A stretch of 64,000 nt of DNA from Tetrahymena thermophila SB210 (taxonomy: Eukaryota > Ciliophora > Oligohymenophorea > Hymenostomatida > Tetrahymenidae): the NCBI RefSeq assembly GCF_000189635.1, contig NW_002476011.1, positions 1-64,000 of the forward strand, given 5' to 3'. Shown here piece by piece: positions 12,053 through 64,000 of the stretch (its first letter is position 1; the number at the start of each line of letters is the position of its first letter). A model generated the notes under the pieces. It did not search any database, was not told the DNA's origin, and saw nothing but the letters and a program-made list of their open reading frames with translations. Both the position numbers and the translations under genes were made by a program.

Positions 12053-15000
12053 ATGACAAATTATTTATACTTTTTGATTTTTGTAATCAAATCAATTTTA
12101 AGCAAGTAGATTCTTGAAAATTCTATCATTCTTTAGTAAGATTCTAAACAGTATGCTTGCTTTGCTTAAAACACTTATGACTCTTTCAGTGGTGTAAGCT
12201 TATTTAAGAATTTTTAAAGCGATATTTAAAGCTTAGCAATAACAGGATGGGTATTTTTAAATGGCTTTGGCCCTGTTGCAAATTCAATAGTTTAAATTAA
12301 AGAATAAAACAATTAAATTCTAGACTTTACTTATGTCTCAAACGCAATGTTTGTTACAAGATATTTTACAGAGGATGATAAGCAATATACTTTTAATGTT
12401 AAAATAAATACATGGTATTATTTTATAGTATTTCTTTAAAAAATTGAATTAAGTGGAAGTTTTTAATATAATCTTCAAATTTAAGTTTTCTATTCAAGCG
12501 ACAACATTAACATAAATCAGTATACAATTACTTAGCAAGCAGAAAGTACTGATGTTTAATTTGATAAATCAAAATTATTACTTAATATAGGTGGGTCTGA
12601 CATTTTTAGTTAATGTTGTTGTTAGCTGTAACTTGTTTATTTGTTTTGGAATCTGTAAATGACTGATTTAGATATTTTTGGTATACTAAATGATCCCTCT
12701 TCAGGATATTACTAACAAATTTATTCTATTGATTTTTTTGGATAATTAAGTGGTTCAAACTATATATTTAACTAAGGCTTTTATTAAGATAAAATTGATG
12801 TAATATACCTTAATTAAGATCCTTCAAAACTATATTCAAATCAATATTTTGCCTTTGATACTTTTATTTCTGAAGCAAAAGGATTCACATTTTCTTTTTA
12901 TTTTAGAATGCTAGAAACTTCAAGCTTAATAAATTAAATAATGATAGTATAAAGTAATGGCAAATATATTTAGCTAAATGTAAATCCTAATAATTAAATA
13001 TTTATCTTATAGTAAAGTAGTGAAGCTCCTTATTTATTATAAACTGTTTAGCAGAATTAATGGGTTCAAGTAATATTTGTTTTCTAGCTTAAGTTAAATG
13101 CATAAATTTTTGTTTTAGTGTCATTAGGCACAGACTAAAGAACATATAAATGTGAAAATTAAAACAATTAATATTTCGATTATTTTACTATCTAATTTGG
13201 AGACAGTGTACTACATAACAAGTTTTAAATAGCTTATATAAATCTTTTTGAAGGAACTTTATTATCATAATCTCAAGAATGCAAATACTAAATTCATCTG
13301 ATTGATTCTATCAAATGTTTACAATGCAACCAAAATTATCTTTTAGATGTATAAAACGGTTATACATGTGTGCCATAAATGAACTTTTCATCTTCTATTA
13401 TTGGAGTTAAAGATTAAATGACTCCTCATATATACTGCAGCGGAGATCTTATTTAAGATCAATAATCAAACAAATGCGTATGTAGGAGATAGCATTATTT
13501 AAAGAATGGAATCTGCTATAGATGTCCTCTTTACTGTGATGGATGTGTTGATTAAAATACTTGTTTAAAAGGGGGTGATAATAGAATAAATGGAGTATGC
13601 TAAACTGGAAATTTTGATGATGGATTTTCTTGTTTATAAATAGGAAATTATTACTTTATCCCTACCAATACTAACCGAGTTTTTTCAGTAACTAATCTAA
13701 ATTTTGATCCTGAGTGCAATTAAGAAGTTAATTTGTAGTAATTTGTTTATGGAATTATAAATGATAGTTTGATTTTAAATGAAAATGACTCATTTTTCTA
13801 TGGTTTTACTATGCTTCAGAACACTCCTTCATAACCAGATTCTGTAATTTCTTACTTCAAAAATAATGGGTAAATTGCCTTTTCAATAAGATATAGTAAA
13901 GTAAATTAATGGGAGTACATTTAATTTGTAGATTATAACAATGCTGTCCTGTTAAAGTACAGATTTAATTCTTAATTTTAGTTTTGGATTGGAATTTGGA
14001 CAAATATGCAAAAAGTAATTTTTTACTTATACAATTATGGAATTTATTTCGCATAAACAATATTACTAGGATTAAGTCCATAATATAACCAACCATAGAT
14101 CTGTATAGGGCCTTGTAAAATTCCTTCCTTACCATATTTTTGTGGGTCTATGTTTGACTCCAAGGCTACTATTATAATAAATTTAAAACCTCCAAATAAT
14201 TAGCTTTAAACAGATTAACAAATTTTTAACTTAATGACACCTTTTAATTAAGTTATAAATTATTTTATCTTTGATGAAAAAGACCCAAATAATTTAACTA
14301 AAACACTAGACTAAATTACTTAAACTTATTTGCTAACATATACAGCTGGTGTTTAACAAAATGATAAATTTAAAGGATTTGCTTACTCTAAAAACTTTAA
14401 TGGTTAAGTATAAATTAATTTTGAGCATTTTGTATCTTTTTCTTGCTCGATTTATATTAGCGTTAACTAAAAAAGAAATTACTTTCAAAGTATAGGTTTT
14501 TTTAAGGTTTTATTTGTCCCTCACGAGTCTCTTTAATCCTCTCTTATATAAATTTGCAATTTTAATATTTGTTTGTCAACTTAAAAGTGCATGATATAAT
14601 TCTAAACTATCAGCTAATTATTAATAATTCATAGGCTTAAATGTAAATATTGCAATGATATAAACTCTTAAGAATTTACTGTAGTTATTAACTACTGCTA
14701 AGAGACACTAACTTTTTAATAATAATTTACTCATACCACATAAACTTAACTCAATATCGGAGTAGCATAAACTGATGATGTCATATACTTTAACTACCTA
14801 AAATATTATCAAGAAAATGGATTTTTTTATTTGAGCTATGATTTAACTGATAAGTGCTTTATTTATATAAATCTAAGTTAAATGAAATGTATTTATCCAA
14901 AATAGAATTATTATTTTTTAGGTGATTAGATTTTATCATTATAAGAATGTATAGGGAAGAGCTATTATGGAAATTATGTATATTAAATTAATGAATATTC

Positions 15001-17296
15001 AAGGGAATGTATTTAGACTTAATTAAGTAGTTAACTTTGTGTATAAATTGATTATGAAACAAATTAATGTCTAAAATGCAAGGATAATCTCAAAAGTAAA
15101 GAATCATTTTGTTTAAGCTGTATTGATCGGTATTTTTTAGATAAATCAAATTAATGTAAACCTTGCCATTTTAAATGTGTTAAATGCAAAGACTTTTATG
15201 ATAATTGCTTGATTTGTAAGTATTTAAATAGCTAAAGACCTCCTATTTGTGATTGCTTTCCATCATAATTTTTAAATAGTAATTAGTAGTGCATAAATTG
15301 TTCAAAGAAGTGTTTAAATTGTTAAGACAGTCCAGATAAATGTACTTAATGCAATAATAGAAGAGTTATTCCTCCAGCTTGTAACTGTAATGAAAAATTT
15401 TATTTATAAAACGAAAACTGCGATGATATAATTTGTGATATTCAATGCCAAACTTGTTAGTATTAATCTAGCTAATGCTTGTTGTGCAAATAAGGGAGAG
15501 AAAATCCACCTTAATGCAGTTGCCTAACTAATTATTACCCAAATATAAATGGAGATTGCCTTCCTTGCTAATAAAATTAATACTTTGATTCATAAACATA
15601 GTCTTGTAAAGATTGTGATAAAAAGTGTAGTTAATGCTAAAAATTTAAAGATTTTTGTACTGAGTGCTAATCAAACATGTATCTTTAAAATAATTAATGC
15701 CTATGTTTAGAGGGAAGTAGTGCTTATTACTAAGGATAATATACTTGCCTACAAAATATGAAAGTAAATTTAGAAATAAAGCTCATAGATAACTAGTATT
15801 ATTTATAATTCACTTTTGAAAAAAATATCATATAAATTAATTTTTAAATATTAGATATAAAGAATATAATATCTATACATTTTTCTTAAATTCCTGAAGA
15901 TTTCTACTCTCTTTCATATTTTTAAAGTACTGAAAACTAATTATTGATAAAAATTAATATTAATTAAAGCTTTTAAACATTGTAAGGAAGTGTATAGATA
16001 TTATAGCCTTATTTGTTTGTTGATATTTCTATGAAATATGTCTTAAGCAGTATTTATCAAACAAACCCATTTCAAATAAAGTTAGGTCCGTTTATGCTTA
16101 CTAAAGAATATCTATAATAATAATTCTTTGATACATTACTAAAATCTGTTTAGAGTGTTGACTAAAATTTTATAAATGTCCTTTAATAATTTTAGATAGT
16201 GTTCTATTTTTTAAACACTGTCTAACCTACAGCGATGATACTTCTATTTAATACTTAGCTTCCTCCAAATTTTTATAAATTATGCTAATTATTTGGAGCA
16301 TTTGTATTTCCATTTGTCCCTGACTATTAAATACAAAATTATAAAAACACATTTTAGTTATTTGGCTTGGTCTTATCAAACAAAGATATTTAACCAAGTA
16401 GCAATAAGATATTAAATAGATTAGGGTTTAGTAACAGCTTATTGGTAAATATGCAATTAATTTTTCTAAAATAGATAGTTATTTCTTTTATTGCATTAAT
16501 TGTAATTTTAATTAAATTCAAGCATTTCTAATTATAAAAGAGTAAAAAATCCAATTTACAAAAACTAAGTAATTTTTAAAATATTCTATTCAATAAATTT
16601 ATAGAAGAAAGTGAAATTAATTTTCTATTAACTTTATTATCAATTTTCTGTCAATTTGAAGATTTATAGCAAGACCTTTGGAGCATTAGGTATGGAATAT
16701 ACTTAACTGGTTTGCAAATAATTCTTATAGTAACATAAGCTCTTTTTATATTAAGAAATTTAATTAAAAATAAAAGTTTTTAAAGTATAAAAGTATTTAC
16801 TTCTAGAATAAATAATAACCATAAATATCTATCAAAATACTATTTCTATATCCAAATGTTGAAGAAATACCTTGTTTTATTTATTAAATTTTACATGTAT
16901 GATAATTATACTTTTGTTGGCATAGCAGTATCTCTAATATTTTTAATATCTGGTATATTATCATATATTTAATAGCCATACAAAAATTCATTTACTAGAT
17001 ATTTAAAAATATTTGGGGAATTAATACTATCTGTACTTTGGATTATATTGATACTGATAAGAAAAACAGAAGATTAATTTCAATAAAATTACTTGATTAG
17101 CTCTGATTTATTAAATAAATATCTTACTTATGGATCAGTAGCTTCTATTATGGTGATTGTATTTAATTTTTTATTTTTATTAGAGTTACTATCACCTTTA
17201 GCAAGATATTTTTACAGTATAATACTTGCTTTAAGGAAAAAATAAGAGTAAAGTACAAAAAGTAATTAACTTAAAAAAAGTATATTAAACATATGA
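12053..17296 (+). CDS. Array gene A: giant Cys-rich multi-pass surface protein
   Basis: Single exon, 1747 aa, TGA at 17294-17296. Signal peptide in residues 1-17. First lectin/LamG-like region begins near AITGWVFL (about 63); the second is at about 270-400. Cysteines follow at 408-441; the signature module lies at nt 13523-13633 (CPLYCDGC ... GNFDDGFSC). A further beta region holds the C-x-G-x-C pair CIGPC (about 682). A CxxC array fills 985-1230, with furin/EGF-like spacing and the recurrent NPPQC turn. A beta domain at 1236-1380 precedes the membrane block, with hydrophobic segments near 1382, 1462, 1553, 1606-1645, 1655 and 1696-1718 and the loop QQPYKN. It ends only about 25 residues after the last segment. 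With C it is the most diverged member. Extracellular binding is inferred; no ligand or enzyme motif is visible. Confidence 0.9.
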
Positions 17297-18554: not shown

Positions 18555-21500
18555 ATGAAAAAGCAAACGAATTTTATCATTTTAGTATAAATGTTTTTCT
18601 TAATAAAATCAATTTATCCTAAAAACTACTTCTAATTGAATTATGATGTAAAGTTTTAATAGTCACGCATTGCTAATACACATTAGCTAATTCAAGGAAG
18701 CATTATATTTGCAGAGTCTGATTCTACTTAATCCTATGTGAGTTAACTTTCAATATCAGGGTGGTTTTTTATGAGATATTTCTATGCTAACACTTTCAAT
18801 ATTTTTACTATTTCACAAATATAATAGGAAGTTCTTAGCGTATCTTATAATAGTAGTAATCCTTATTAGATTAAATAAGTATTATTATCTTCTTTTAATG
18901 ACATTTAGAGTGGTATTCCTTTAATCAATAATTAATGGTATTTAATTACATCTTAGATAAATATCTAAAATAGTTAAATTTCTTCGGAAACTTATTTTCA
19001 CTAATATGGATAATTATTTTATGCAAGCTTAGTTTCCTAATCTTATTCTTTTAGCTAGCTTTTATTTAAGTAAGATTTAGCAATTGAATTAGGTAACTCT
19101 AAAGTTTATGGTGTAATTGAATCTCCTTTCTATTATAAATATGTTTATTTTTACTGGGATTCTAATATTAGTATCAGTAATATATCAAACTATATGGATG
19201 ATTATACTGCTCTTCAAACCTAGTTAGTATGGAATTTTGACTTCTTCTATACTAAAGCTAATCCTAAGACTTATTTTAATGTAGCTAAATAAATGAAGAT
19301 ATATCCATCTAATTATGATACAGGTGATTCTTAAATTCTACTTGTAAAATAAGGAACGGTATTTAAAACAGATTACGTTAATCCTCTTGAATTTGGAGGA
19401 TTAGTTGTTACTTTCCACTTTAAAATATCTTCTCTTTAGTTCGCAAATTTAAAATTATTTTAAATAGTAAATAACTAAGTGTAAATTAGTATATCCTTAG
19501 ATTCTTCTTAAAATATATACTTAAATACATAATAAATTTAAGGAGTTTAATATGATAAATGGAATTAAATCACTCTTATAGTTAAGACTTTAATACTAAA
19601 TCAGGTTTACCTAATTGTAAACACACTACAAAATCAAGCTTAAAATATATCTTTTAATTAGCAATTTTTACTTGGATAGCTTTAATTTGGAGATTTGTAA
19701 AACACATCAGATATCTAATTTAGTCACATTAGATATTACAAAGGAACCTTTCTCACTTCTAACGAAGGAAATTGTTTATTATAAAATTCTAGAAACACTG
19801 TTTCTTGTATAATTTGTTAATCTGGTTTTTTTATAAACTACCAAAGTAGTTTAACTTGCTCATCTTAAATATTGCCTAGCATTGATGTTAATAAAGATAA
19901 TATAATTGATTGGAATGAAAATTTTTAGAGTTGCCCTAAAGGTATGGTATATGATCCTATTTCATATCAATGTAATTGCATGAATCAATTCTACCTTTAA
20001 AGTAATAATACATGTGCAAAATGTCCAAGCTACTGTGATGGGTGTATTAACTAATAGACCTGCATTTAGTAAGATCCATAACGATTGGCAAATGGCATAT
20101 GTCAGAATGGGTATTTTGATGATGGGTATTCTTGTATTACCTAAAAACTTACTATCTTCAGCTAAAAAAATATCTTGAAAACATTCTAAGTACCTAATCT
20201 GAATCCCATTTGTTCACAATCAATAAACCCTACTGATTACACATTAAATGATAGTTCTCTAAAATTATCATCATTTGATTCTTACTCTTTTTTATTTAGT
20301 TTTACATATTAGTTTATTGATAAAATAAGCAACTCATCTATTGCAATTTTTAGAGATGGAATGAATGAAATTTTTACTTTCTCTTTTGATCTAATCTCAA
20401 ATATTTCCTATTTAAATTTTGAAGTATACGGATAAGTTAAATACAGGGCTATTATAAATTCTAATTAAACCGTTTGGATTAATTTGTGGACTGATTTAAA
20501 TTCAGTGACTATGTTAATTTAATCTTGTTCTTTATTTTTTCATACTACTATTAATGTCGATCTTAAAATTAAATTGACAAACCCATCTTTTTGTTTAGGT
20601 CCTTGCAAATCTTTTTATCATCAAGGATATTTATGTGGAAATATTTAGGATAGGCCTTTGATATTTATCTAAAATATAACAAACCCAATTTATGATTTGA
20701 TAAGTTTGCAGATGTTTTTATCAAGCACTGTAATTAATGTTGCTTTATTTAAAATTAGCTTGTTTTTAGATTTATCATAAATTTATTAAAATTAACTTCA
20801 ATCCAACCCTTCTTTGACTATAAATTTTTAAAACACACCTGTTATATTACATAAATTAAAAGGTTATGGATTTAATAAGTAAGTAAATGCAATCATTCAA
20901 AATATTAATATTTCAGGTTATTATTGGATATCCTTTTATTGCACAATTCTTCCAGTTGTTATCAATTCTTAAGTATCATTACTATCTTATACTTTGAATG
21001 GAGGTAATGTTGAGTATTTTCTTGTTCCTAATGGATAAAAAATATTAATAAGAATTTGTTTCATAACATAGTGCATAGATTCAAAATATTCTATGTTAAG
21101 CCTTAATGAAAGCAATAGTTTATTTATTTTAATGAGAAATCAAAGCTCTTTTTCTGCTGGAGTTTTTTTTATTGAGTTTGATGTGATATGCAATTATCTT
21201 AGAGAATAAATTTAGTTTTTGAATAAATTTTTTAACACCAATATACCAACTATTAATCTGAATATAGGACTTTAAACATAAGATACTGATGATTTTTTAT
21301 TCTATCTAAATTTAATTAATATAGACAAAGGTGATGGCTTGTACTACTTTGATTATAATCCAAATTAAGATTGCTTTATATTCTAGCAAATAGACTAAAT
21401 GAATTGCATTTATTATAAAAATAACTTAATAAAATATTAAGATAAATAAATAACTATTCAATAATGCTTAAGTTTTAATGATAATAATCCATTTACGTTT

Positions 21501-23720
21501 TTTATTGCTAATCTTTAGACAAAAGAATGCTAAAATACTCATTAATAATTTCCTGGTTGCCTAAACGTAGATTTTGTTAATAATACTCTTTAATGTGTAT
21601 AATGCATAAAAGATAATACTGACCCACTGAATAACTGTTAGTGCTTAGAAGGTTTTTATTATGATAATTAAAGATAACTTTGTCTTTAATGTGATATAAT
21701 TTGCTAAGCATGCGAAGGTAGTAAGAGTAATTGTACTAAATGTAAGTAGGAAAATCAAGTAATTCCTTCATGTAATTGTCTTTTAACAAATCAATTTTTG
21801 AATTAAAGTTTTGAATGCTAGCAATGCTCTTAAAAATGTGATTCTTGCTTAAAAACTTAAGATTTTTGTTTGATATGCTCAAACTATAGGATAAATCCAC
21901 CTGAATGCAACTGTGATTATGATAAATTTATGGAAATCAATGGTATATGTACCTAAATTGTGTGTGATAAATCATGTGATAAATGCTAATTTGACATTTC
22001 AAATTAAAGTATAACTTGCTTAAAATGTAAAACAGGGAGAGAAAATCCTCCATAATGCACTTGTTTGTAAAATTATGAGGAAAATAGTGATGGTAGCTGT
22101 TCTCAATAAAAATGCAATTTAGGTTATTAATATGACTCAAACACTAAAAATTGTATTGTAATAGGTTGCCCTGTTGGGAAATCCTTGACTATTTTAAATA
22201 ATTAAAAACTTTGCTTAGAAAATATGGATGTAAGTTTATCAGTTTCCTTAAATACAAGTAATTAATATATACTTTAATTTAGGTTTGATTAAACTATTTA
22301 ACAACTTGATATTAAATACCAATAAAATATTAGCAGTCTAATATAATTAAGCTTTTCTGAAATTTAAGATAACTTTTATAATTTAAGTGATCCATTTATT
22401 AAAGAAAATACTCTTTTTGTTAAATTAACTATCAATCATAGCTTTTATGCACAGCAAGGATATATCTTATTTTTAGATAATACAAAATTCGTTAGTACTT
22501 CATAACAATTTGTACTAAATTAAATTTATACAAAAAAACAAATTTAATTTGAAATAGGTCCATTCCTACTTGAAGAAAGTACTTTAGCTAATAAAATGGC
22601 TGATCAAGCAATAGACTATTTTAAAAACTAAAATTAAGATACCTTGAGATTTTTTTAAAGCTTTTAAATAATTTTGTATATTTTAAATACAGTATAACCC
22701 TCAGTACTTTTCTTGCTGCTGAAAGCTTAATTACCCCCTAATCTCTATAAATTTTATTAAATGATTGGATTGTTGATATACCCAGATGTGGTAGATTATT
22801 AATCTACAAATTTTAAGTAAGAATTTGAATTATTCTATATGGATTTGAACTCTACAGAAGTTTACTAATCTGGCAACATAATATTTAAAAAATTAGGATT
22901 TTCTAATAGCTTTTTAATAAATGTTTAAATCATAATAATCAAGTATTTATTCCTTTTTTTGTTGATTATAATTACTTCAGCAATAATATAATAAAATATT
23001 CATTAGCTAAAATACAGTAAATTTTTATAGAAATTTCAATCTATAAATTAAATTGCAAAATAAAGAATTAATTCAGAAAATGATTCAAATTTGCTGATGG
23101 TTATTCAATCAATTATGGTTTAGTTTACATTTTTAGACTAATAAAGTTGGGCAGTAAGATATGGTTATTATTTAGCAATACTTTTTCTTCTTCTTCATTT
23201 TATATCATTTTATTAGAATTTTAAATATATAAACGGGATATAAAAATATTAAGAGTAAGATTATTCATTTTAATTTGTTGAAAGACTATAAAATTAAAAC
23301 AGCAAATCAAATAAATATTATTTCTTAAGTTAACTAACTAAAAAATATTTAGTTTTGATTATATTATTTTCTTTTGTAGAGTTCCCCATCATATCTTGCA
23401 TATTAAATGCAGTAGTCTTTATTATTTCAGCAACTTTAACATATTTGCAGAAGCCTTATAAGAATTGCCTAAGCAGATACATTAAACTAATTGGTGAAAT
23501 TATTATGTCTGTTTGTTGGTTTATTCATATATTTATTGTAATATAAGAATATAAGATGGTTAAGTTGACAACATTAGATCCAAATGATTTAAACTAATAT
23601 TTAAGATATGGAGAAATAGTCATCATACTGCTAATTATATTTAATATTTTGTTTTTAATAGAATTATTTGCTTAGCTAGCTTATTTATTATAAATATTAA
23701 TTGCAAAAATTAAAAAATGA
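18555..23720 (+). CDS. Array gene B: giant Cys-rich multi-pass surface protein
   Basis: Single exon, 1721 aa, the shortest complete member; TGA at 23718-23720. Signal peptide in the first 22 residues or so (IILVQMFFLIKSI). First beta region with SISGWFFM at about 66; the second starts with GGLVVTFHFK (about 281). Signature module at nt 20022-20135 (CPSYCDGC to GYFDDGYSC). The CLGPC pair is near 682, the CxxC array at about 989-1203, and the juxtamembrane beta domain at 1223-1370. Membrane segments run from about 1371 (IILYILNTVQPS), through GFSNSFLINV, to QKPYKNCLSRYIK and a final segment; the protein ends at once after it (AKIKK), so there is almost no cytoplasmic tail. It is closest to D and E in sequence order and wording (VWNFDFFYTKANP shared), so it is probably the nearest outgroup of that pair. 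Confidence 0.9.
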
Positions 23721-24632: not shown

Positions 24633-27600
24633 ATGAAAAGAGTAAATTAAAAAGTATAAAATTTTATTTGTTTATTTTTAATAACAATTTTAGTTTCTAA
24701 CGCATAAAACTATTATAAGCTTTCAGATGGAACAAAGAATATTGACTGTGATAGATCTTTAAATTCTCAAGTAGTATAGGGTATTGATATTTTTTAAAAT
24801 ATTGGAATGAATACTCCAGCTTCAATTTTAAATATCTCTGGATGGATTTTCTTAAGAGGATTTCAACAAAAGTACTATACTATATTTTCTATACATTAGG
24901 CATCTAATTTAGTATTTAGCCTTTAATATACGCTTGTTCCATCACCAAAAATGAAAGTTAGTTTATATAGCATAGAATAAACAGCTGATTACTCATTTTT
25001 AACTTAAAAACAATGGTTATTTTTTATGACTTAAATTAATTACAGTTAAGTTTCTTTAGATTTATCATCAAATACTTATTTAATAGGAAATAACATTAAT
25101 GTTGCTCTTCCATCAATATCTTTTAACACTAATATCATCCATTTTGATAAAAATAATTTATTTATTAATTTTGGATTACCTGGAAATTCACTTTCTGTAG
25201 AATCTTCTTGTTCTTTTACTAGAGATTTTGTTATTGTATGGGACTTTGATTTTTATTAAAGTATATTAGGAGCTCGTAGATATGATCTTAGTGATTTTAA
25301 GACTTATATACTCTGGAATTATGATCTTTTCTATATTAAAAGTAATTAAGGCTAGTTAATAAGCTAATAAGTAAGGCAGAGTAAAATAAAATCTCCATTC
25401 CTTTTCTAACAAAATGATAATTAAGGGATTTTTGAAACTTTGAGGGCTGGATAAGTTTTCACTACTGATTTTATCAATGTTAGTGATGTATAAGGATTAA
25501 CCTTTTCTTTTTAAGTTTATCTAACAGGCTAAATATTGAGTGATACACAGATAATTACTTTAATTTCAGAAAATAGTTAACTTATTTTTGGATTTAATAA
25601 AGATTATAAATTTACCTTAAAAATAATCGAAAATGGAAACAAATAAGAATAATAGACTTTAACAAGAACTATATAATATTAAGAGTGGACATAATTTTTG
25701 ATGGTATTCAAAATAGGATTGTTTTAAAAGGTTGAATTTCAAATCTCTTCGAACAGTGTAATGAATAATTTTAGATTTAAATTGATTAAAATTAATAAAA
25801 ATGTTTAAGTTAAATTTGGCTCTACAGAAAATTTAATAGATATAAAATTTAATAATATCTTCATCGTCAAAGGTAGCTATTTAGGTTTTTCTTAATAATG
25901 TTTATACTTATTACCAACAAATTAATGTTTAGTTTGTAGCTAAGGCTAGTATTCAATCGATTTTTAAAATAATATGAATTGTGTTGACTAATCGACAATA
26001 ATTTAAAATCCAGATGGATTCAATCAAAAGCTATGGAATAGAACTGTATGTGCTAAGGATTAACTTAATGTAGGTAATGATTGTATTTGTAGAAATTAAT
26101 TTTACAAATAAGGAAATGAGTGTTTCAGGTGTCCATCTTATTGTAACGGATGTATAAGTGCATAAATATGTAAAGAAAAGCATATAAACAGAAACAACTA
26201 AGGATAATGTTAAAGTGGATATTTTGATGATGGTTTTAATTGTATTTTAAGAGCATTTTCTATTTAAGAATATAATTTAGCGCTAAATTATTAAAATTCA
26301 CAATATAATTGTAATCTAGCCATTGCCGATTCTAGCTTACACACATTTGATAATAATTTAATGTAGATCTAATAAAATTAATCTATCCTCTATAGTTTTA
26401 GCTTTAGCTTAACATAACAACCAGCTGATTACAGTGTTATTTCAATACTTACTGATAATGGGATAGAAGTATTTACAATTTTAGCCATAAATAAAAAAAT
26501 ACATGTATATATTTAAGGAAACGATGCCCTTTCTATCGAATTTAAGGAAAGCGAAACGACATGGGTTGCTATTTATACAAACTGGAATCTTCTTCAATTA
26601 TTTGTATTTACAGAAGCTCAAATGAATGTAAAATCTGCTCCAATTAGTCCTTCTATAGCTATTAATTCACCAAAAATTTGCGTGGGTTCTTGCTACTCAA
26701 CTGTATTCCCTAAATATATTTGCGCGAATTTAGGAGAAAGACCATTCATTTTAATTAAAGATATTTCTATAATCTAAGAAAAAACAGATATTTTATTTTT
26801 GATTTCTAAACCTATGATTAAAATCGCTCAATTTAGATCCATTAAATCTAGTTTACAGCCTGAATAAATTATACTAATTAATTAAAGCCAATAGATATTT
26901 ATTGATTTTCAAGATAGCTTGAAATATATTGATGAATTTAAAGGTTTCTTGTTTGACCAGAATACTTCAGCTTAAATTATTTTAGATACAACCTACTAAT
27001 CTCCAATTACATTTTCCACATCCATATTTATTGAAAAGATGGAAAAGACTGTTTTATTACTCAGCTATGATAATGTTCAGTATTACTTAGTTCCATAAGA
27101 AGATCTTAATAGGATTTTTATAAGGATTTGCTTCAAGCTAGATTGTGCTGATTCTAATTATTCAAGTTTAATTTTTAATGAACCTAATTTTCTATTAATT
27201 CTTTATAGAAATAAATCACCATTTACAACAGATTACAGCTTTTTATAATTTGAAGTGTATTGCAACTATAAAAAAGAATAGCTTAATATAGTTTAATCTG
27301 GATATCAAATTTCATTTTTTTCAAATTTGATGTTAGGTTTATAAAATTAATTAGACGAAACTTCTATGTTTTTGAATAATATTTCACTATATACTGGAGA
27401 TGGATACTTATATTCTGACTATACTAACCTCAATAATTGTTTTATTTATATAAATATATCACCAAGAGAATGCTTAGTTGCTAAATAAGATCATTTAGTA
27501 ATAAATGGCAAAGTAGCTTCCATTTAAGAATGCTTAAATTTAAATAAAAATTATATATAAAACTAAGGCTATTATTAAATCAATCCCTTTACAAAAGAAT

Positions 27601-29855: not shown

Positions 29856-29951
29856 AGTAAATATTTTATTTTTCTTTTATTCAATTTATTAAAAATGCAT
29901 TTTTTAAGTTTCAATTATTTTTTAAAAAAGCAAATATTTCAATAACGTAAA

Positions 29952-47132: not shown

Positions 47133-50100
47133 ATGAATTTAATATTAGAAAGATATTTATTTAAATTAGTCTGTTTTCTTCTAGTTTTATGCTTATCTGC
47201 ATCTAGCTAAATTGACAATTAATACTTATGTATAGGAGACTACTTTGTTACACCCTGCTATCAGAATTTAAATAATAGAATTGATTACTTTTGCTCTGGA
47301 ACTGATGTTTTTAAATAATATTCTAGTCCCACTATTTAAAAATTCACTATCACGGGCTGGGTTTTTTTAATGGGAAATATAAATTAGAATTACAATATCT
47401 TAACGGTCCTAGAAAACAATACTTTACTTTTTAAAATTGAATATAACATACAAATGTCTGTATTTACTGGAGCATTATTATCAAACACCCCCTAATCTTT
47501 TAGTTAAAGTGGGTCTTCTTCACTAATTTCAGCATGGTACTTTATAAAATTTAAGATGGAAGTATTGGTTGGTACACAATTAAATTTATATGCAAATATT
47601 TAAAGTGGTGGAACACATTATTTTTTAACATTGTCAACTGCAACTAGAAGCAATACAGCATTCTAGGCATCTAAAATGATCTTTGACTATGGGAATGGTT
47701 AGTCATTTTCTTAATATAGCTGTTTATTGATTTTAAATATATATATTTATTGGGATTCTGACCTATCAGATTCTAGCTATTTTACACTTTTTAACGATCT
47801 TTCTGCGATGGATATTTATTTGAAGTGGAGCTACGATACTTTTTACATCCAATAAAACTAAGGCTATTTATTATAAGCTAACAAACCTAATGGTAAACTT
47901 CCTATTGGTATTAATAGAAATGAATCTTTTGTATTGAAAAGCTAAGAATAAATAGTATCAGATTTTATTAATTCTTAATCAAATAGGGGATTTGTCTTGA
48001 CTTTTCACTTTAAATTGGTTTCTTAATTGGGGAAAACTAATAAAATTGTGATTTTGGAAATAATTAACTATCCTAATTCTTAATTGATCTTCGATAATAA
48101 TTAACTATATTTCTTTAATACTCTAATGGCAAATATTTAATTAAAAAAATGGAATTAAGTAACAATAATCTGTAATAAAATTGCCTCTTAATTTTATTTC
48201 ATTCTCAATGATGATTAAACAACTTTAAATTCATTTACAAAGAATAATGCCCTCTAATTTTGTTAAATTTTGTTTGGAGATTCTAATAATACAAATTATT
48301 ATTTATATTTAAATTATATAAGAGTATATGAAGGTATGTTTTTGAGCAGCAGTCCAACCTGCTTTATGCTACAAGCTAGAGGTTAACAGAATTGTATCAT
48401 ATGTAAAAGCGGTTACTTAATAGATTACTAGAATAACATGGATTGTGTTAGCCCATCTTCAAATAGTTAGAGTACAATAATAGATAATGTTAAAGACTGG
48501 TTTCCAATATAATTCAAATGCCCTAAAAATATGATTTTGAATAGCTAAAATGTGTGTATTTGCATGTTTTAATATTACAGAGTGGGTGATGATTGTTTTT
48601 TATGCAAAAATTATTGCAAAGGTTGTTTAGATGCAGATACGTGCATATAAATGGATCCATTAAGATAAAGAAATGGAAAATGCTAAGATGGTCTTTTTGA
48701 TGATGGGTATAATTGCTACAATACTTTATATAATATTTAAAGTAGGATAAATTACATTAAAACGTTAAATCCTAATAATTTTCTTAGTGGATGCTCTTAA
48801 ATTGGAACTCAAACTTCTAATTTAATTGATAATTCTATTTTAATGCTGTAAAAAGAGAAGGCATTCTTTTTTTCTTTTAGTGTGAAAGTCTATGACTCAG
48901 TTAGTTAAGCTGCTATAGCTTTCTTGTAAGATGGAACATCTGAATTATTCACTATAATGTTTGAATTGACCTCTTATAATGGATAAAGTTTACCATCTGT
49001 AAATCTGTATGTAAAAGGCTCAAAATTACTAAGTTTAATTATAGGGTAACAATCAACAGTATGGATAGGCTTATGGACGGATTTTAACAATCTTTGCTTT
49101 TTTATTTTCTCTGATATGATTATGCAATACTAAAATATAAATGTGAATAGTTATTTCTCAAGCTATAGTGTGCAAAATCCTACTTTGTGTGTTGGAAAAT
49201 GTAGTTCTTAATTACAATCAAATTATGCATGTGCAGAGTATAGTTAAATTCTTTATATTTATAATTTAAACCAGATTAATGATTTAGCCCAAGCTAGATA
49301 TTTAATTAACCTTTACACATAAACAATTTCATTATTTAAACTAGATTTCTTTAATTTGCCAACTTCTAACAGCATTAAAGACTAATCAAATTAGTATGCT
49401 TTAATTTCAAACTCAAAAATAATATCTAATAGATTCAAAGGAATTCAATTTACTTAAAATCTTTAAGCTTAAATCTCAGGTGTTGATATTTAATAAAACT
49501 ATCCTAGTTTTTCGTGTTATATCTTTCTTGAAGAACTTACTTTTTAGCAAATGATATTTTAGATACAACTAGGATCTTCGTAATTATAGTATCATATAGT
49601 CCCATATGGTACAAAAGCTTTTGTTAGGATATGCTAATTTAACTTATGTCTTGATACAAAATACTCTATGCTTAATATTTATGAGCAAAACTTTCTATAC
49701 ATTATTTATAGAAAAATAGGAAATTTTCAAACAAATATTTATCAAGAGTTTGAAGTATTTTGCAACTATTAAAGAGAAGTCTTATTATTTTTTGTATAAT
49801 AGTAAACATATCCAGTATCATTAAACATATTTATTTTTAAGCAAATCTATCTTTCTAATTTGTAAAATCAATCAGTTTATCTTAATAAAATCAGAATCGA
49901 AGCAGGTGAAGGATTTTATTATCAAGATTAAAATCTTTCCGAAAAATGTTTTTTATTTAAAAATATTTAATAAATGGAATGCTTAATCCCAAAAAAAGGA
50001 TTTGTTTTTTATTAAGATAATTTATTAATCACAGAAGACGAATGCAAAAATTTAACAATTAAAAACAATTATTTTCATATAATAAATCCATCAACATAAG

Positions 50101-52862
50101 AATGTATTAATACTTACTTATCTCCATACTGTGAATAATTAGACGATATCGATGATTCTTTGAAATGTAATAAATGCTAATATATAGGCCAGGACCCTGA
50201 CAAGAATTGTGAATGCCCATTTGGAAGCTATTTAAATGTACAAATAATTATTTTTCTTTATTAAATATTATATAATTTTTAATTTTTTTATAATTTTATT
50301 TCAGAGTTTATCTAATCCCAAAATAAATGATTTTTTGGTTAAGATTTTGAAAATTCATAAATATAGATAATTTAATCTTAATCTAAAAATTTGTACTTAT
50401 TTCTTCCTAATTTAAAATTAAATATTAAAATTTGTAAATTAACTTGAAAAAAACCCCCTTCAATTATTTATTTTAATTTTTGAGTTTTTCTATTAATTCA
50501 TCATTTATTCAAGGACCAATAAACCGAAAAGTTTTTATTAATCTTAAAAATTTTTATAAATAACCTTTTATATCAATATACCTATTAATCTAAATTTAAA
50601 TATAAAATTTATTTATTAAAATTTATATATTCTTTTATAAATAAGATAACAAATTCAAAATGCGAATAATGCAATCCTTAATGCTAAACATGTGATGGTT
50701 CATCTAATAACTGTTTAACTTGCAAATATGCTAATTAAAATCCACCATAATGTGAATGCTTAAATTCAAATGAGTTTTTAGATGAAAATTACATTTGCAA
50801 AATTTGTTCCTATAAATGTTAAACTTGCTATTAGAGTGCTAATATGTGCCAAACTTGTTCTACTAATAGATTTAATCCACCTAATTGTGATTGTGCGCCA
50901 TAGTATATAGAGTTTAATGGTTAATGTTAGCCATTAAAATGTGAAAATAAATGTTCAAAATGTGATTAGTCTACTTCTAATTGCATTGAATGCAATATAG
51001 GTAGAGTTAATCCTCCTCTTTGCAACTGTTAGCTTAATTACATTGAAAATTAAGATGGAACTTGTTCATAGTGTATTTAAGGATATTATTATGATTAATA
51101 AAATAATAATTGTCAATAGTGCTCAATTTAGTGTCATTCTTGCATAAATTAACAATATAATTGCACTTCTTGCAATTATGGATTAATTCTTTAAAAAAAT
51201 AAATGCATTTGCTCAGATGGAACTTCTATGATTAAAAAAAATAATTAGATTTTATGCTTAAAAAATATGAATGTTAGTTTGAGTGTAATTTTGAACTCTA
51301 CCTATTACTCTCTTGTTTTCAAATTTGATTATGATATTCAATAACTAAATAACGAATATTAAAAGAATATAGCTTAATTAATTTAAATAACTTTTTAAGA
51401 AGTTCCATAAAGCTTCTTTGAAATTAGTGATCCAATTGTTTAAGGAAATACAATTAAAGTTAAACTAAATATTTTTAAAAGTTTCTAAACCTAGCAAGGT
51501 TGGGTTTAATTTTTAGACAACACACAATTTATAAGCACTTCACAAGAATTTGTACTGAATCAAAATTATACAACAAACTTAATTAGGTTTGAAATTGGGC
51601 CATTTCTTTTTGATAAGAATGTTATGGATGGAGGTTTATCAGATTAAATTATTAATCAGTTTTAGGATTCAAGCAAAGATGTAGCCTTTAATTTTATAAA
51701 ATAATTCTAAATAATTCTTTATATCCTGAATACAGCATAACCTTCAGCACTATTTTTGCTATTAAATGCTAAATTGCCTCCTAACTTATATAAATTCTAT
51801 TAGGTAATAGGATTATTAGTCTACCCAGATGTGGTGAATTATTAATCAACTAATTATAGATAAAATTTTTAATTGTTTTACATGAACTTAAATCAAAGAG
51901 AAGTTTTTTTATCTAGTGAATCAGTCTACAAAAAACTAGGTTTTTGTAATAGTTTTCTGATAAATGCATAGGGTATTATAATGAAATACTCAATTATTTT
52001 ATCAATAATAATGATTTTATCAATATTTTTATCTAAAAATTCCTTTTATCAATCTTATAAAATTAATAATAAATTGTTACGCATTAAATAGTTTTTTATA
52101 AAACTAGTGAATAGTGAAAATGATGCAAATCTTTTGTTACTGTTTTAATCAATTTTAGTCTAGTTTACATTTTATGATGATACTATATGGGCTATAAGAT
52201 ATGGATTCTATATAGCAATCTTATTTGTGTTTGTACAAATGATATCTTTTTATTTAAATATCAGATAAGTAAATGGTTAACAAGATTTTAATGAAAGGGA
52301 TTATTCTTTTTAATTTATTGAAAGGCTGCTAGATACAAAAAATAAGTTAAAAAAAAATTATTTCATCATATAATTATTCAAAAAATATTTAGTTTTATTG
52401 GTTTTGTTCTTTTTTAGATAATATCCTATACTAGTTTGTATAATAAATGGAATCACTTTTAGTTTGTCGTGTTTCTCTACAGCTTTTATGAAACCCTACA
52501 AAAATTTAATTAGTAGAATTGTCAAAATAACAGGAGATTTATTGATATCGATTAGCTGGTTTCTTCATATTCCAATACTAGTTTTAGAAAAAAATTTTAG
52601 TTAAGAAACACAAATAAATTAAATGTAAATAAATTAGTATTTATTATTAGGTAAAATAATAATTATATTGATTATTATATTCAATATTTTATTTCTTATT
52701 TTGAAAATTATTGAAATAATGATAGAAATCAAAAATCTTTGCTTTTCAAAAGCATAAAGTGAAAAAAATACTAATTAATTAAGTATTACTAAATAACAAA
52801 TTAATAACTTTAAAGATTAAAATCATATTAAATATTATAAACCTTAGACAAAAAATAAATGA
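47133..52862 (+). CDS. Array gene F: giant Cys-rich multi-pass surface protein, one intron
   Basis: Two exons (47133-50237, 50646-52862), 1773 aa, TGA at 52860-52862. Signal peptide core LVCFLLVLCLSAS. Early Cys residues (YLCIGDYFVTPCYQN) are shared with G and H, not with A-E. Beta motif TITGWVFL. The signature module at nt 48603-48716 has CKNYCKGC and GLFDDGYNC. CVGKC near 686. The 408-bp intron falls after residue 1035 inside the CxxC array, at the same codon as in G and H, but is about 340 bp longer. The frame after it (CEQCNPQCQTCDG) continues the array. The juxtamembrane domain and membrane block (from about 1386) are very like G: LPPNLYKFYQ, GFCNSFLINA and MKPYKN. The tail after the last segment is about 45 residues, ending in NK-rich sequence. 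Confidence 0.9.
50238..50645 (+). other. Enlarged intron of gene F (408 bp)
   Basis: Donor GTACAA, acceptor AATAAG before an ATA codon, matching the AATAG/ATA and AAAAG/ATA acceptors of the 70- and 71-bp introns of G and H. A second possible acceptor, TTTCAG at about 67 bp, ends a segment of the size expected for the ancestral intron, but reading on from there does not keep the downstream frame. The extra 340 bp is A+T-rich with a small C-run (ACCCCCTT) and no ORF. It looks like an insertion in or next to an old short intron. Confidence 0.65.
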
Positions 52863-53574: not shown

Positions 53575-56500
53575 ATGAAATTCTTGTTCTTTTAAATTAT
53601 TATATCAATAAAAATACTAAGGTCCCTACAAGACAGCAGTCAAAACAGCTAAGCTATTAATTAATTTAGATGCTTTGGAAGATATTCATATACTCCTTGC
53701 TATCAAAATTCTGATCCTTTATCACTCTATGTAGGCCTTGGAAGTGATATTTTTGTAAGTAAAACTGATCCTACTATTCAAAACTTTGCTACTTCAGGTT
53801 GGATTTATCTACTAGGAGATTAAAGTTAAAATTATAACATTTTAACTGTTTTATAAGGTAGCTAAATTTTATTTAGTGTCCAATACAATATACCTGGCAA
53901 TTATTTCTCTGTTTAACTAAATTCTGATAGTGCTGCAAACATGGTTTATTAGAATCCTGGGATTATTGCAATAATATAATAATAGTGGTACTTTTTTTAA
54001 TTTTATATGGAAGTAACTGCAGGATCCTAACTTAATTTAAATACATATATTTTTGAATAAAATCAAAATTATTTTATCTTATAATTATCAAAACCGGGAA
54101 TAGGGTTTAATTCTTTCAAAGCTGCTGATTTAGTATTTGATTTTGGTAAAGGATAATCGTCTGTATATAGCTGTCTATTTCTACACTACGTTTATATTTA
54201 TTGGGATTTAAAACTAAATAATCCCAATTCGTTTAGCTTATTTGAAGATATTTCTGCATATGATATTTATTTAAAGTAGAATTATGATACTACTTATACA
54301 TAATAAAATAATGGATACTTAATCTAAGTAAATCTACCAAATGGAAAGCTGCCTTTACAGATTAATCAAAAAGATCATTTTGTTTTGAAAAATTAAGAAT
54401 AGATAAAAACAGATTTTATAAATTTCAAATCACAGAGAAGTTTTGTTCTTTCTTTTCACTTTAGATTAGTTCCATAAAGTGGGAATTCAAATCCTATATC
54501 AATAATGTACTTAACTTCTTAAAATAATTATTAAATTTAAGTGAGTAACAATAATTTGTATTTCATTAATAATTTAGTGAATGGATTTTAATTAAATTAG
54601 TGGAATTAAATTACTCTTATCTATAGAGAGTTTTATTATCTGACTCTTTAATTAATTTTGAATGACGATTTGGCAAACTCGATTGTAATTAATCTTAATT
54701 CTAAGCTTATCGCTTCCTAAGCAACCTTTGGTGATTCATCTATTACTAATTATTTTCTATACTTAAATTACATTAGAATATATGAAGGAGGATTTTTAAG
54801 CTAAACTAATTCATGTTTTATGCTTGCAGCAAGAAATGATTAATAATGTATAATTTGTAGAAGCGGCTACTTGTTAGATTATTAGAATAATATGACTTGC
54901 GTTACTCCATCTTCTAGTAATTAAAGTACCTTAATAAATAATGTAAAAGACTGGACACCTAAGCAGTTTACTTGCCCAAAAAATATGATCTTGGATAGTT
55001 AAGATATTTGTAAATGTTTTTTTTAGTTTTATAGAAGAGGTGATGAATGCTTTCAGTGTTAAAGTTACTGCAAAGGATGCATAGATGCAAATACATGCAT
55101 AGAAATGGATTCTTAAAGATAAAGTAATGGAATATGCAAGACTGGATATTTTGATGATGGATATACCTGTATAAAGCCTATGTTTAATATAAAAAGTAGG
55201 ATAAATTACAAAATTAATTTAAGTCAAAGTGATTTGGGTGCTGGATGCTCTTAAGAAGGTACTTAATCTTCTTATATAACTCATAATTCAGTTCTCAAAA
55301 TTTAAAAAGAAAGGGGATTCTTTTTTTGTTTTGTGTTCTCAGCGCATAATACAACTCCTTAATCCACAATAGCCTTTATATAAGATGGTGGACTTGAATT
55401 ATTTACTATAATGTTTGAGATGAACAATAATAATGGATATTCTATGCCATCTTTTAGTTTATACGTATTGGGGGTCAAACAATAGATATTATTTTCTAGT
55501 TAAACAAATTCAGTATGGATAGCTTTCTAAACAGATTTTAGTACAGCTTATTTTCATATATTTTTTTATCTTAATTTATACACAGCTGTAATAGATGTAA
55601 AGAGTTAGTTTTCAAGTTACACAGTAAATGATCCTTTTTTATGCATAGGTAAGTGCTCTTCTCAATTTTAACCATCATATGTTTGTGCTAATTATGATTA
55701 ACTTTATTACATTTATTAATTAGATCAGCTAGGGGATTATTCTTAAATTAAAAATCTTATTTAATTTTAAACAAATTAAATAGCATTTTTTAAGCTAGAC
55801 TACTCTAATCTTCCTACTTCTAATTATATTATTGACCCTATTTCTTCTCTCAAACTATAATCAAATATAAATTTAATTATCAAGAGATTTAAAGGAATTC
55901 AATTTACTTAGAATATAAATGCTTTAATTTAAGGATTAATATTAAATTCTATTTATCCCACATTTTCTTGCAATATCTTTATTGAAAAGCTTACTATGGA
56001 GTAAATGATATTTAATATTTAAGCAGGATCATTGTATCTTTAATACTTTTTAGTTCCTTATGGGGAAACAAAAGCTTAAATAAGAATGTGTCATGCTAGT
56101 TTATGCATTGATACTAAATATGCTATGTTAAATATCAACTAATAAAATTTTTTATATATCATATATAGAACAAGAGGATAAATATAATAAAAAATATTTG
56201 AAGAATTTGAAATATTTTGCAATTATCAAAGAGAAGTAATATAATTTAATAATCCGCCTCTACCAGATAATAATCCAAAAACGGCTCTTATCTTTTATTA
56301 AGTTAATTAATTAAATTTATAAGACTAATCTCTTTACATAAATAAAATAAGAATTGAAATAGGTTAAGGATCGTATTATTATGATTATGATAATTCTGAA
56401 AAATGCTTTTTATTTCGTAATATTTTGTAAATGGAGTGCCTGATACCTAAAAAAGGTTTTGTATTCTATTCAAACAATTAAATCATATCAGAAGATGAGT

Positions 56501-58927
56501 GTAATAAAATGACTTCAATTTTAAAATTGTTTCATACAATAGACTCTTCTGCTTATGAATGTGTAGATACAAGGCTATCTCCTGATTGCATAATGCTAGA
56601 TGATAGTAGTTAAAATTTCATGTGTATTAAATGCTAATATAGTGGCTAAGATCCAAGTATAAATTGTGAATGCCCTTTTGGTTCCTTTTTTAATGTAAAA
56701 TTATTTTAATTACTAAATAAAAATGTTAAATTTTAATATTTAAAAAATTTTTTTAAAGTAATAGATACTTTCATGCTAAAAATGTAGCCCAAATTGCTTG
56801 ACTTGTATTAATACTTTTGATAATTGCATAAAATGTGTGAATTCTAATCAGTCTCCGCCATAATGTTCATGCTAATAGTAGAATTATTATTTGGATGAAA
56901 TTTTTACATGCAAAATGTGTTCATATTAGTGTGATACATGTATTTAAAATTCTAATTATTGTCTAACTTGCTCAAAAGATAGAGAAAATCCTCCTATATG
57001 TAATTGCTAGCAATAATTTAATGAAGTAAATAAAATATGTGAAAAAATTGAATGTGATTAGAAGTGTTTAACTTGTGCCTCATCATCTTCTAACTGTACT
57101 CAATGCAAAAATGGAAGAGTAAATCCTCCTTAGTGTAATTGCTAGGATTAATTTGTAGAAAATTAAGATGGAACTTGCTCATAATGCAACTAAGGATACT
57201 ATTATGATTTTAAAACTCAAAATTGTTAATAATGCTCATTGTAGTGCTTATAATGTGTGAATTCAAAATCAAACTGTATTGTTTGTAAAAGTGGTTTATT
57301 TTTAAATAATAATGATTGCTTTTGCTCGAATCGAACATCTCTAGCTTTGGTTGATAGACAGCTAATCTGCTTGAAAAGTATGGATGTAAATTTAAAAGTT
57401 ACTTTAGATACTGATCATTATGTTCTCATATTTAGTTTTGATCATGATATCTAATAGATAGATAGTCGCTTTTATTAAGACATCAGCTAGTTAATATATT
57501 TAAGATTCTAAGAAATTCCAACAAATTTATATAATTTAAGTGATCCAGTTATAAAAGGGAAAACACTCACTATTAATTTAAATGTGAATGAAAACTTTCA
57601 AACTTAACTTGGATGGGTTTAGTTTTTAGATAATACCAAATTTATTAGCACCTCCTAAGAATTTATTCTTGATTATATTTACACTAAAAAATATATTGAT
57701 TTTTCAATTGGACCATTTTTATTTAAAAAAAATAATTTGGATTCTAGCATCACAGATCAAATAAAAAACAATTTCAAAAACTCGAATTAATATGTATTTA
57801 ATTTTGTAAAATATTTCTAAATAATACTATACATATTGAATTCAGCTCAACCAACAGCATTGTTTTTATTATTGAATGCAAACTTACCTCCTAATTTGTA
57901 TAAATTCTATTAAATGGTAGGAATGGTTGTATATCCCGATGTGGTTGATTATTAATCTACAGATTTTAAGGAAGACTTTAATTTATTTTATATGAATCTC
58001 AATTAGACAGAAGTATTTAAATCTAGTGATTAAATATACAAAAAGCTAGGATTCTGTAATAGCTTTTTGATAAATGCTTAAGGAGTGATAGTGAAATACT
58101 TGTTTTTATTTATTTTTATAATTATAACTCAATTAATTGTTTAATTATGCAAAGAATTTAATAGAAATAAGTTGCAATAAAAGTGTAAGCGATTTAATTA
58201 AAAATTAAAATAAGCAATTAACTCTGAAAATGATACTACTTTATTAATAATAGTTTAATCTATGCTTGTTTAATTTACCTTTATTGACTAATAGATATGG
58301 GCAGTAAGATATGGATATTATTTAGCAATTATTTTTTTAATAGAATTAATAGTATCACTCTATATAAATATTCAACAAATAAATAGTAAATAAAAGTATG
58401 ATGAATCAGATTATTCATTTTAGTATACTGAAAGAATCTTAAATTAAACAAATAAATTAAGCAGGTATTATTTCATATTTTAACTGATTAAAAAATATAT
58501 TCTATTAATAGTGTTATTTGCTTTTAAAAAGTACCCAAATTAAACATGTATAATAAATGGTATTTTAATAATTTTTTCAGTAATCTTATCAATAATCCAA
58601 AGGCCATATAAATATATAGTTAGCAGATATATAAAGGTTATTGGAGAACTTATTTATTTTGTTTGCTGGTTTCTACATATCTTTATTATAGAAAAAGAAG
58701 CTAAAATGATGAAATAAGTAATTTTAGATGCAGATGATGTTAGTTAATATTTGAAATTAGGTTAGATAATAATAATTCTATTATTAATTTTTAATATACT
58801 GTTTTTGATTGAAAAATTAATATAAATAGTTTCACTTATTTTAAAGATTGTAAGCAAAAATAAAAAAGATAATAAAAAATCTATTATATTTTTCTAAAAA
58901 AACGAAAGAGCATAATTAAAACTTTGA
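53045..58927 (+). repeat. Left copy of the 6.3-kb tandem duplication (gene G unit)
   Basis: About 530 bp of upstream flank plus gene G is repeated directly at 59380 to beyond 64000, with start codons 6314 bp apart. Coding identity is high throughout and near-complete in blocks such as 54540-55030 against 60850-61340. Confidence 0.85.
53575..58927 (+). CDS. Array gene G: giant Cys-rich multi-pass surface protein, one intron
   Basis: Two exons (53575-56694, 56765-58927), 1760 aa, TGA at 58925-58927. The acceptor at 56764 (AATAG) was preferred over AAAG at 56758; both keep the frame. Signal peptide core FLFFQIIISIKIL. ATSGWIYL marks the first beta region. Signature module at nt 55057-55170 (CQSYCKGC to GYFDDGYTC). 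CIGKC near 688. The CxxC array spans the intron (about 1010-1240), with NPPICNC and NPPQCNC turns. The membrane block includes LPPNLYKFYQ, LGFCNSFLINA and QRPYKY, where Tyr replaces the usual Asn. The tail is about 35 residues, Lys/Asn-rich. Coding follows the ciliate code throughout, with no broken frame. Confidence 0.92.
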
Positions 58928-62800: not shown

Positions 62801-64000
62801 ATCTGAAGATGAGTGTAATAAAATGACTTCAATTTTAAATTCATTTCATACTATAGACCCTTCTGCTCATGAATGTGTAGATACAGGGTTGTCTCCTTAT
62901 TGCATAATGTTAGATGATAGTAGTCAAAATTTCATGTGTATTAAATGCTAATATAGCAGCTAAGATCCAAGTAAAAATTGCGAATGCCCTTTTGGTACCT
63001 TTTTAAATGTAAAATTATTTTAATTATAAAATAAAAATGTTAAACTTTAATATTTAAAAAAATTTTTTTAAAGTAAAAGATACTTTCATGCTAAAAATGT
63101 AGCCCAAATTGCTTAACTTGTATAAATACATTTGATAATTGTATAAAATGTGCGAATTCTAATCAGTCTCCACCATAATGCTCATGCTAAGAGTAGAATT
63201 ATTATTTGGATGAAAATTTTACATGCAAAATGTGTTCATATTAGTGTGATACATGTATTTAAAATTCTAATTATTGTCTAACTTGCTCAAAAGATAGAGA
63301 AAATCCTCCTATATGTAATTGCAAGCAATAATTTAATGAAGTAAATAAAAAATGTGAAAAAATTGAATGTGATTAGAAGTGTTTAACTTGTGTCTCATCA
63401 TCTTCTAACTGTACTCAATGCAAAAATGGAAGAGTAAATCCTCCTAAATGTAATTGCTAGGATTAATTTGTAGAAAATTAAGATGGAACTTGCTCATAAT
63501 GCAACTAAGGATAGTTTTATGATTTTTAAACTTAAACTTGTTAATAATGCTCAATATAGTGCTTATAATGTGTGAATTCTAAATCAAACTGTATTGATTG
63601 TAAAAGTGGTTTATTTTTTAATAATAATGATTGCATATGTAAAAATGAAACATCTCTAGTTATGATTGGCAATCAGTTAATTTGCTTGAAAAATATGGAT
63701 GTAAATTTAAAAATTATTTTAAGTACTGATCATTATGTTCTTATATTTACTTTCGATCATGATATCTAATAGATAGATATTCCATTTTAGTAAGACATTA
63801 GTTAGTTAATATATCTAAGGTTCTAAGAAATTCCAATGAATTTATATAATTTAAGTGATCCAGTGATAAAAGGGAATATGCTCACTGTTACTTTAAATGT
63901 GAATGAAAACTTTCAAGCTTAACTTGGATGGGTTAAGTTTTTAGATAATACCAAATTTATTAACACCTCCTAAGAATTTATTCTTGATTATATTTACACT
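59380..64000 (+). repeat. Right copy of the 6.3-kb tandem duplication (gene H unit), partial
   Basis: Direct repeat of 53045 onward; it runs off the window end. The intron is at the same codon and is 71 bp against 70 in G. Confidence 0.85.
59889..64000 (+). CDS. Array gene H (5' part): giant Cys-rich surface protein
   Basis: Two exons so far (59889-63008, 63080-64000), 1347 codons inside the window with an unbroken frame to the last base. It is a near copy of G: same signal peptide type, ATSGWIFL, signature module at nt 61368-61481, CIGKC and CxxC array. It is cut in the juxtamembrane beta domain, so the membrane block lies outside the window. Against G, differences gather in the first lectin-like region (for example FDPFASFLCTGND, with an extra Cys, where G has DPLSLYVGLGSD) and in the third beta region around 61640-61860. 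The extra Cys matches gene F, so H may have kept or regained the ancestral state by exchange with F-like sequence. Confidence 0.92.

Follow-up and report, generated by a model that had tools for sequence, protein, structure and literature searches.

Thirteen tandem genes for large, predicted multi-module membrane proteins in Tetrahymena thermophila, one of them a chimera

The window analyzed here is the whole 64,000-nucleotide stretch formed by positions 1 to 64,000 of contig NW_002476011.1 (C400) of Tetrahymena thermophila SB210, in which GC content ranges from 16.6 to 25.9% in 2-kb steps. A telomerase fragment from the same genome agrees letter for letter, wherever it aligns as exons, with the telomerase chain of PDB 6d6v, a T. 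thermophila protein, and genetic code 6 and the GC content fit this species. When open reading frames (ORFs) were read under genetic code 6, a tandem array of giant paralogous genes on one strand was found from position 12,053, as an earlier note on this DNA had described. That note counted eight genes. Using the gene 4 protein as a query against its own genome (445 contigs, 101.0 Mb), matches on C400 were found to reach 97,970, and with splice modeling a total of 13 paralogues could be placed between contig positions 12,053 and 98,069, so that the array continues well past the window edge, with all 13 genes on the plus strand (Table 1). The ATG preceding a signal-peptide-like stretch was taken as the start of each gene; further in-frame ATGs are present in genes 9 to 12. 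The 12 ungapped proteins are 1,721 to 1,828 aa long, with masses of 200.1 to 212.3 kDa, including 210.6, 211.4, 212.2, and 212.3 kDa for genes 4, 5, 12, and 13, respectively. The length range of 1,721 to 1,824 aa given in the earlier note is right within the window, except that gene 3, read from its signal-peptide ATG, encodes 1,740 rather than 1,822 aa. A search of a limited collection of papers found none whose title or abstract describes the array.

Table 1. Positions on contig C400 of the array genes, the modules of gene 6, and the exchange place in gene 2, with partial matches elsewhere in the genome
Feature	Position	Strand	Remarks
Array gene 1	12053..17296	+	1,747 aa, single frame
Array gene 2	18555..23720	+	1,721 aa, single frame, chimera
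Gene 2 exchange place	22035..22155, breakpoint near 22,095	+	Cys-rich stalk; approximate
Array gene 3	24633..29855	+	1,740 aa, single frame
Array gene 4	33117..38591	+	1,824 aa, single frame
Array gene 5	41049..46520	+	1,823 aa, single frame; 91% identity to gene 4
Array gene 6	47133..52862	+	1,773 aa, two exons, predicted intron 50238-50645
Gene 6 LamG-like domain 1	47214..47918	+	boundaries read from model
Gene 6 LamG-like domain 2	47919..48356	+	boundaries read from model
Gene 6 Cys module	48357..48812	+	
Gene 6 LamG-like domain 3	48813..49337	+	boundaries read from model
Gene 6 LamG-like domain 4	49338..50102	+	boundaries read from model
Gene 6 furin-like CxxC stalk	50103..51215	+	split by predicted intron
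Gene 6 membrane-proximal Ig/macroglobulin-like beta domain	51216..51635	+	
Gene 6 polytopic membrane module	51636..52760	+	5-6 hydrophobic segments array-wide
Array gene 7	53575..58927	+	1,762 aa, two exons, predicted intron 56695-56758
Array gene 8	59889..65236 (window edge cuts at 64000)	+	1,760 aa, predicted intron 63009-63073
Array gene 9	66676-72208	+	
Array gene 10	72846-78314	+	
Array gene 11	79069-84630	+	includes 100-N gap
Array gene 12	86160-91832	+	
Array gene 13	92396-98069	+	
Partial matches	C208 (two), C210 (three), C13 (three), C267, C381, C418, C138, C405		

The gaps between array genes measure 563 to 3,261 bp and have a GC content of 14.5 to 17.4%. Small genes were considered in the two largest gaps, which hold ORFs of 252 and 343 aa, and rejected, as these ORFs have 15% GC, compared with 25% for the gene 4 coding sequence, and no Pfam match; the view that no unrelated gene lies between the members was thus upheld. 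These two ORF-bearing gaps share homologous DNA (73 to 82% identity) and are therefore duplicated flanks. Degenerate extra gene copies in the gaps were also discounted, with just four weak matches (E = 0.009 to 0.78). The flanks of gene pairs 4/5, 7/8, and 12/13 can be aligned, so that each pair was born by duplication of a gene together with its flank. Intergenic palindromes lie upstream of genes 3 and 9, at 24111-24262 and C400:65904-66103 (74 and 68% self-complementary, respectively).

The reading frames had been described as unbroken, which holds for genes 1 to 5, each a single ORF, but not for genes 6, 7, and 8, where the frame shifts at one homologous place. GT-AG splice pairs were scored against gene 4, and introns of 408, 64, and 65 bp, respectively, were predicted from the sequence of these three genes, with further introns of 196, 108, 204, and 187 bp predicted at the homologous place in genes 9, 10, 12, and 13. 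One predicted phase-0 intron of 64 to 408 bp, just within the CxxC array, is therefore common to all seven ungapped genes from gene 6 onward, and its position would leave most of the stalk and the entire membrane part in the last exon of genes 6 to 10, 12, and 13. As genes 1 to 5 are without the intron, this terminal-exon layout is not array-wide. Gene 11 carries an assembly gap of 100 N near the intron place (C400:82091-82190) and was left out of the dN/dS, hydropathy, and breakpoint analyses.

Signal-peptide-like starts are found in the array genes, and structure models of gene 6 suggest a plan of four LamG-like domains, a Cys module, a furin-like stalk, an Ig/macroglobulin-like domain, and five to six hydrophobic C-terminal segments. 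This agrees with the multi-module build noted earlier, in which a signal-peptide-like start was followed by LamG-like, Cys-rich, and polytopic parts, and the build is of a recognition type. In the model the beta regions appear LamG-like, as had been proposed, but four sandwiches are seen, one pair before and one pair after the Cys module, in lieu of two and a "third beta region"; this count and the domain boundaries are a reading of the strand pattern of the model. The models were built with alignments of 15 (ectodomain) and 22 (terminal exon) sequences and have pLDDT values of 73.5 and 77.4, respectively. From 192 Foldseek matches to the ectodomain model at an E value of ≤0.001, the top PDB match was LNS1-LNS6 of neurexin 1-alpha (E = 7e-16), followed by laminin LG strings and tandem galectins. 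As the neurexin match has, along its full length, approximately 8% identity and a high rmsd, it is read as indicating a string of LamG-like sandwiches and not the neurexin arrangement. For the terminal-exon model, none of 154 Foldseek matches had an E value of ≤0.001; furin repeats of RSPO2 (probability, 0.98; E = 0.05) and an MG fragment of alpha-2-macroglobulin (probability, 0.98; E = 0.14) were matched, and no convincing Foldseek match was obtained for the helical part.

Profile searches gave fewer matches. Laminin_G_3 (PF13385) was found by Pfam in 3 of 15 ectodomains at an E value of ≤0.1, scoring under the cutoff in gene 1 (24.8 versus 27.6 bits), and in the 22 terminal segments five families were matched, each in a single member, with a best E value of 0.0022 (DUF1125). 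Profile matches to solved structures were confined to the Cys-rich part, comprising 15 sequences at an E value of ≤1 (best, 0.083). By hydropathy, five to six C-terminal hydrophobic segments are present in all 12 proteins analyzed; some ectodomains also hold hydrophobic 19-mers. According to the models, strings of LamG-like beta sandwiches would be common to the array proteins, neurexins, and laminin LG regions. Neurexins have a single transmembrane (TM) helix, whereas the array proteins would combine four domains around a Cys module with a furin-like stalk and a multipass anchor. A LamG-like head, a membrane-proximal beta domain, and several TM helices are also features of CELSR-type adhesion G protein-coupled receptors (GPCRs), and CELSR1 was among the ectodomain Foldseek matches. 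However, with five to six hydrophobic segments and no 7TM or GAIN match in the Pfam scan, the adhesion GPCR reading was rejected. The array would also provide strings of LamG-like domains on a multipass anchor, here outside animals.

To what extent relatives of the array occur elsewhere was assessed by searches of the same genome. At least seven full-length relatives, each in one open frame, were identified off the array, two at C33 (whose starts are provisional) and one each at C288, C39, C220, C154, and C126, and the Cys-rich part, the membrane part, or both are matched at no fewer than 13 additional places (Table 1). Distant relatives of the membrane module or stalk form small tandem groups at C81:553804-572334 (minus strand), C13:1253959-1265549 (plus), and C210:2544-19381 (plus). 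Repeated furin-like stalk matches at approximately 661 to 696 kb of C114 (plus) may represent a further tandem array that encodes Cys-rich proteins.

The three recent pairs have dN/dS values of 0.27 (genes 4/5), 0.43 (7/8), and 0.46 (12/13). This purifying selection bears out the earlier suggestion that the genes are probably functional. Pooled by module, dN/dS was 0.25 for the membrane module, 0.27 for the stalk, 0.34 for the beta domain, and 0.53, 0.36, 0.49, and 0.31 for LamG-like domains 1 to 4, respectively, with a value of 0.57 (interval, 0.29 to 1.13) for the Cys module. Seven of the eight modules are clearly under constraint, and in none of the eight did dN/dS exceed 1, as adaptive diversification might give. 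Synonymous differences are unevenly spread within the pairs, their dispersion being matched by 0, 2, and 0 of 2,000 shuffles for 4/5, 7/8, and 12/13, respectively, and the longest run free of differences was unusual for 4/5 (1/2,000) and 7/8 (0/2,000) but not for 12/13 (431/2,000). Gene conversion is the likely cause of this unevenness, though uneven constraint on synonymous sites could also produce the clustering.

Judged from its sequence, gene 2 is a chimera, a new finding of this analysis, in which an ectodomain and most of a Cys-rich stalk of the gene 4/5 type are joined to a membrane module of the gene 6 to 13 type. In 50-aa windows, its identity to gene 4 is 40 to 44% over the first 200 residues and 50 to 88% up to residue 1200, falling thereafter to 23 to 54%, while identity to gene 6 rises from 10 to 55% before residue 1200 to 39 to 64% after it, the exceptions being the last two windows but one (42 to 48%) and the tail (14%). 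The best split was found after residue 1180 (1160 with gene 10 as the partner). Sites telling gene 4 from gene 6 are divided 445:43 before residue 1180 and 48:115 after it (Fisher P = 3e-52), and with gene 7, 9, 10, or 12 in place of gene 6, P ranged from 4e-39 to 1e-60; these P values belong to the best split among 160 points and are uncorrected for that choice. By module, the nearest relatives of gene 2 are genes 4 and 5 through the stalk and genes 6 to 10 for the beta domain and membrane module.

Phylogenetic analysis gave the same division. In the ectodomain tree (15 rows; genes 10, 11, and 13, C33b, C39, and the C208/C210 genes left out), gene 2 groups with genes 4 and 5 (SH-aLRT, 98), and placing it with the intron-bearing clade was rejected by the AU test (P = 5e-103). 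In the terminal (TM-exon) tree (22 rows; gene 8, which crosses the window edge, and the gapped gene 11 left out), gene 2 lies inside the intron clade (SH-aLRT, 99), and both a clade of genes 2, 4, and 5 (P = 4e-114) and the same clade with C33a and C33b added (P = 0.0005) were rejected; the clades subjected to the AU test were named after the trees had been inspected. The split is on the 3' side of the intron place, in keeping with the possession by gene 2 of an intron-clade membrane module without the intron of that clade.

On balance, there is about an even chance that the array encodes 13 paralogous cell-surface adhesion or recognition receptors and that these have diversified through duplication, gene conversion, and module exchange. 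Each protein would enter the secretory path and sit in the cell membrane, where its LamG-like head may bind glycans or proteins of another cell, be it a mating partner, a sister cell, or prey. Together, the furin-like stalk and beta domain would keep the head off the membrane, and the membrane module would anchor the protein and either signal or assemble with other membrane proteins into a complex. The array would gain new receptors as genes are duplicated in tandem, through gene conversion, and through recombination within the Cys-rich stalk, the last of these pairing the head of one lineage with the membrane module of another. In this way the array may serve as a source of new cell-surface receptors, and the swap in gene 2 would offer a natural experiment on which part, head or membrane module, sets specificity.

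The closest described parallel is the mating-type recognition system of this organism. In PMC3608545 and PMC10901506, MTA and MTB are described as having a mating-type-dependent head, with five TM helices and a GFR domain encoded together in the terminal exon; their masses (161 and 194 kDa) and those features of MRC1, a member of the mating-type recognition complex with 212 kDa, five TM helices, and a GFR domain, are from the latter source. The array proteins resemble MTA and MTB in their predicted extracellular head, furin-like/GFR stalk, and about five TM helices and in their large size (200 to 212 kDa), and genes 6 to 10, 12, and 13 share, by their predicted introns, the terminal exon of stalk and helices. 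MRC1 is close in mass to the products of array genes 4, 5, 12, and 13 (210.6 to 212.3 kDa), though mass alone is not identifying. Tandem arrays occur in both systems, but the germline arrays of MTA and MTB consist of gene pairs and the two genes lie head to head, whereas all 13 array genes point in one direction, and no sign of programmed assembly as in MTA/MTB was seen in the array sequence examined. The array thus appears to share a build with MTA, MTB, and MRC1, and no membership is claimed. By analogy with this shared plan, the array proteins probably work in a similar way. Furin-like domains abound in this genome (at least 165 PF15913 matches), which, like the one-way gene order, speaks against kinship and makes the combination of a stalk with TM helices weak evidence that the role is shared, and the report in PMC10901506 that MTA and MTB are the only mating-type-specific proteins of strains II to VII counts against heads in the array that differ between types.

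Other functions can be weighed against adhesion or recognition. The heads could instead bind bacterial or environmental glycans in the growing cell, with no role in cell-cell recognition; the fold likeness of the models to the glycan-binding sandwiches of LamG domains and galectins, the large set of genes with diverged heads, and the report in PMC6564038 that genes with a GFR domain form one of the main classes of species-specific genes in Tetrahymena are consistent with such food or environment receptors, but the proteins of this plan described in PMC10901506 act in mating, and this role is considered rather unlikely. A variable surface coat, with the 13 genes expressed singly or a few at a time and switching altering the cell surface, might be expected from tandem surface-type paralogues that range from near-identical to strongly diverged and from the clustering of synonymous differences in the recent pairs. 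However, each gene has its own upstream gap (563 to 3,261 bp) and is complete or nearly so, and the array showed neither an expression site nor an arrangement of silent copies. Furthermore, the variable Ser (immobilization) antigens of this species are GPI-linked Cys-rich proteins, according to the abstract of PMC4136848, and the array proteins have polytopic C termini, so that assignment to the Ser antigens was rejected and switching in general is judged very unlikely.

Least probable of all is a family of TRP-like ion channels or sensors carrying a large extracellular sensor, an idea that arises from the polytopic C terminus and from one insignificant Foldseek match (TRPML2; E = 3.4). The TRP-like C terminus suggested in the earlier note was not recovered: neither a TRP nor any other channel family was found in the Pfam scan of all 22 terminal segments, no Foldseek match to the terminal model had an E value of ≤0.001, and matches to solved-structure profiles fell only on the Cys-rich part, although a missing profile or fold match does not prove that the membrane part has a non-TRP fold.

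Adhesion and recognition receptors thus being the preferred reading, the 20 full-length proteins of the recognition plan are candidates for missing adhesion partners and bear on self/non-self discrimination in ciliates that have many mating types. A bolder version, which we consider unlikely, would make the array a second, undescribed recognition locus near the stock of the MTA/MTB/MRC1 plan, with MRC1 as a member or close dispersed relative and exchange of the gene 2 type as a slow analogue, over evolution, of the programmed linkage of mating-type heads to TM exons. In the matches listed from searches of this genome with eight proteins and one Pfam family, no convincing head-to-head pair was identified, and MTA and MTB may lie beyond the reach of these searches. 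At C185, the one candidate, furin-like matches lie on both strands approximately 9.4 kb apart. In the 2 kb examined there, hydrophobic stretches come after the furin-like repeats but in a different frame, so that introns would separate repeats from helices, unlike in a single TM exon. Among matches to the 20 family proteins, a single one had an E value of ≤0.001, and it fell on the Cys-rich part of gene 12 (E = 4e-5). C185 was thus set aside, not disproved, as an MTA/MTB-like pair.

Upstream of the array, a 340-bp unit is repeated 3.9 times at 97% within window positions 1 to 1318, and a minus-strand frame in this region reads as leucine-rich repeats (LRR), perhaps the end of an LRR gene with 90-bp exons, of the kind described in PMC6564038. 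Overlapping minus-strand frames at approximately 2752 to 6424 resemble one multiexon gene, with no Pfam match in the four scanned. Those at approximately 7259 to 11096, also on the minus strand, are probably the exons of one gene, and one of them contains a cyclic-nucleotide-binding domain (PF00027; E = 4.9e-9).
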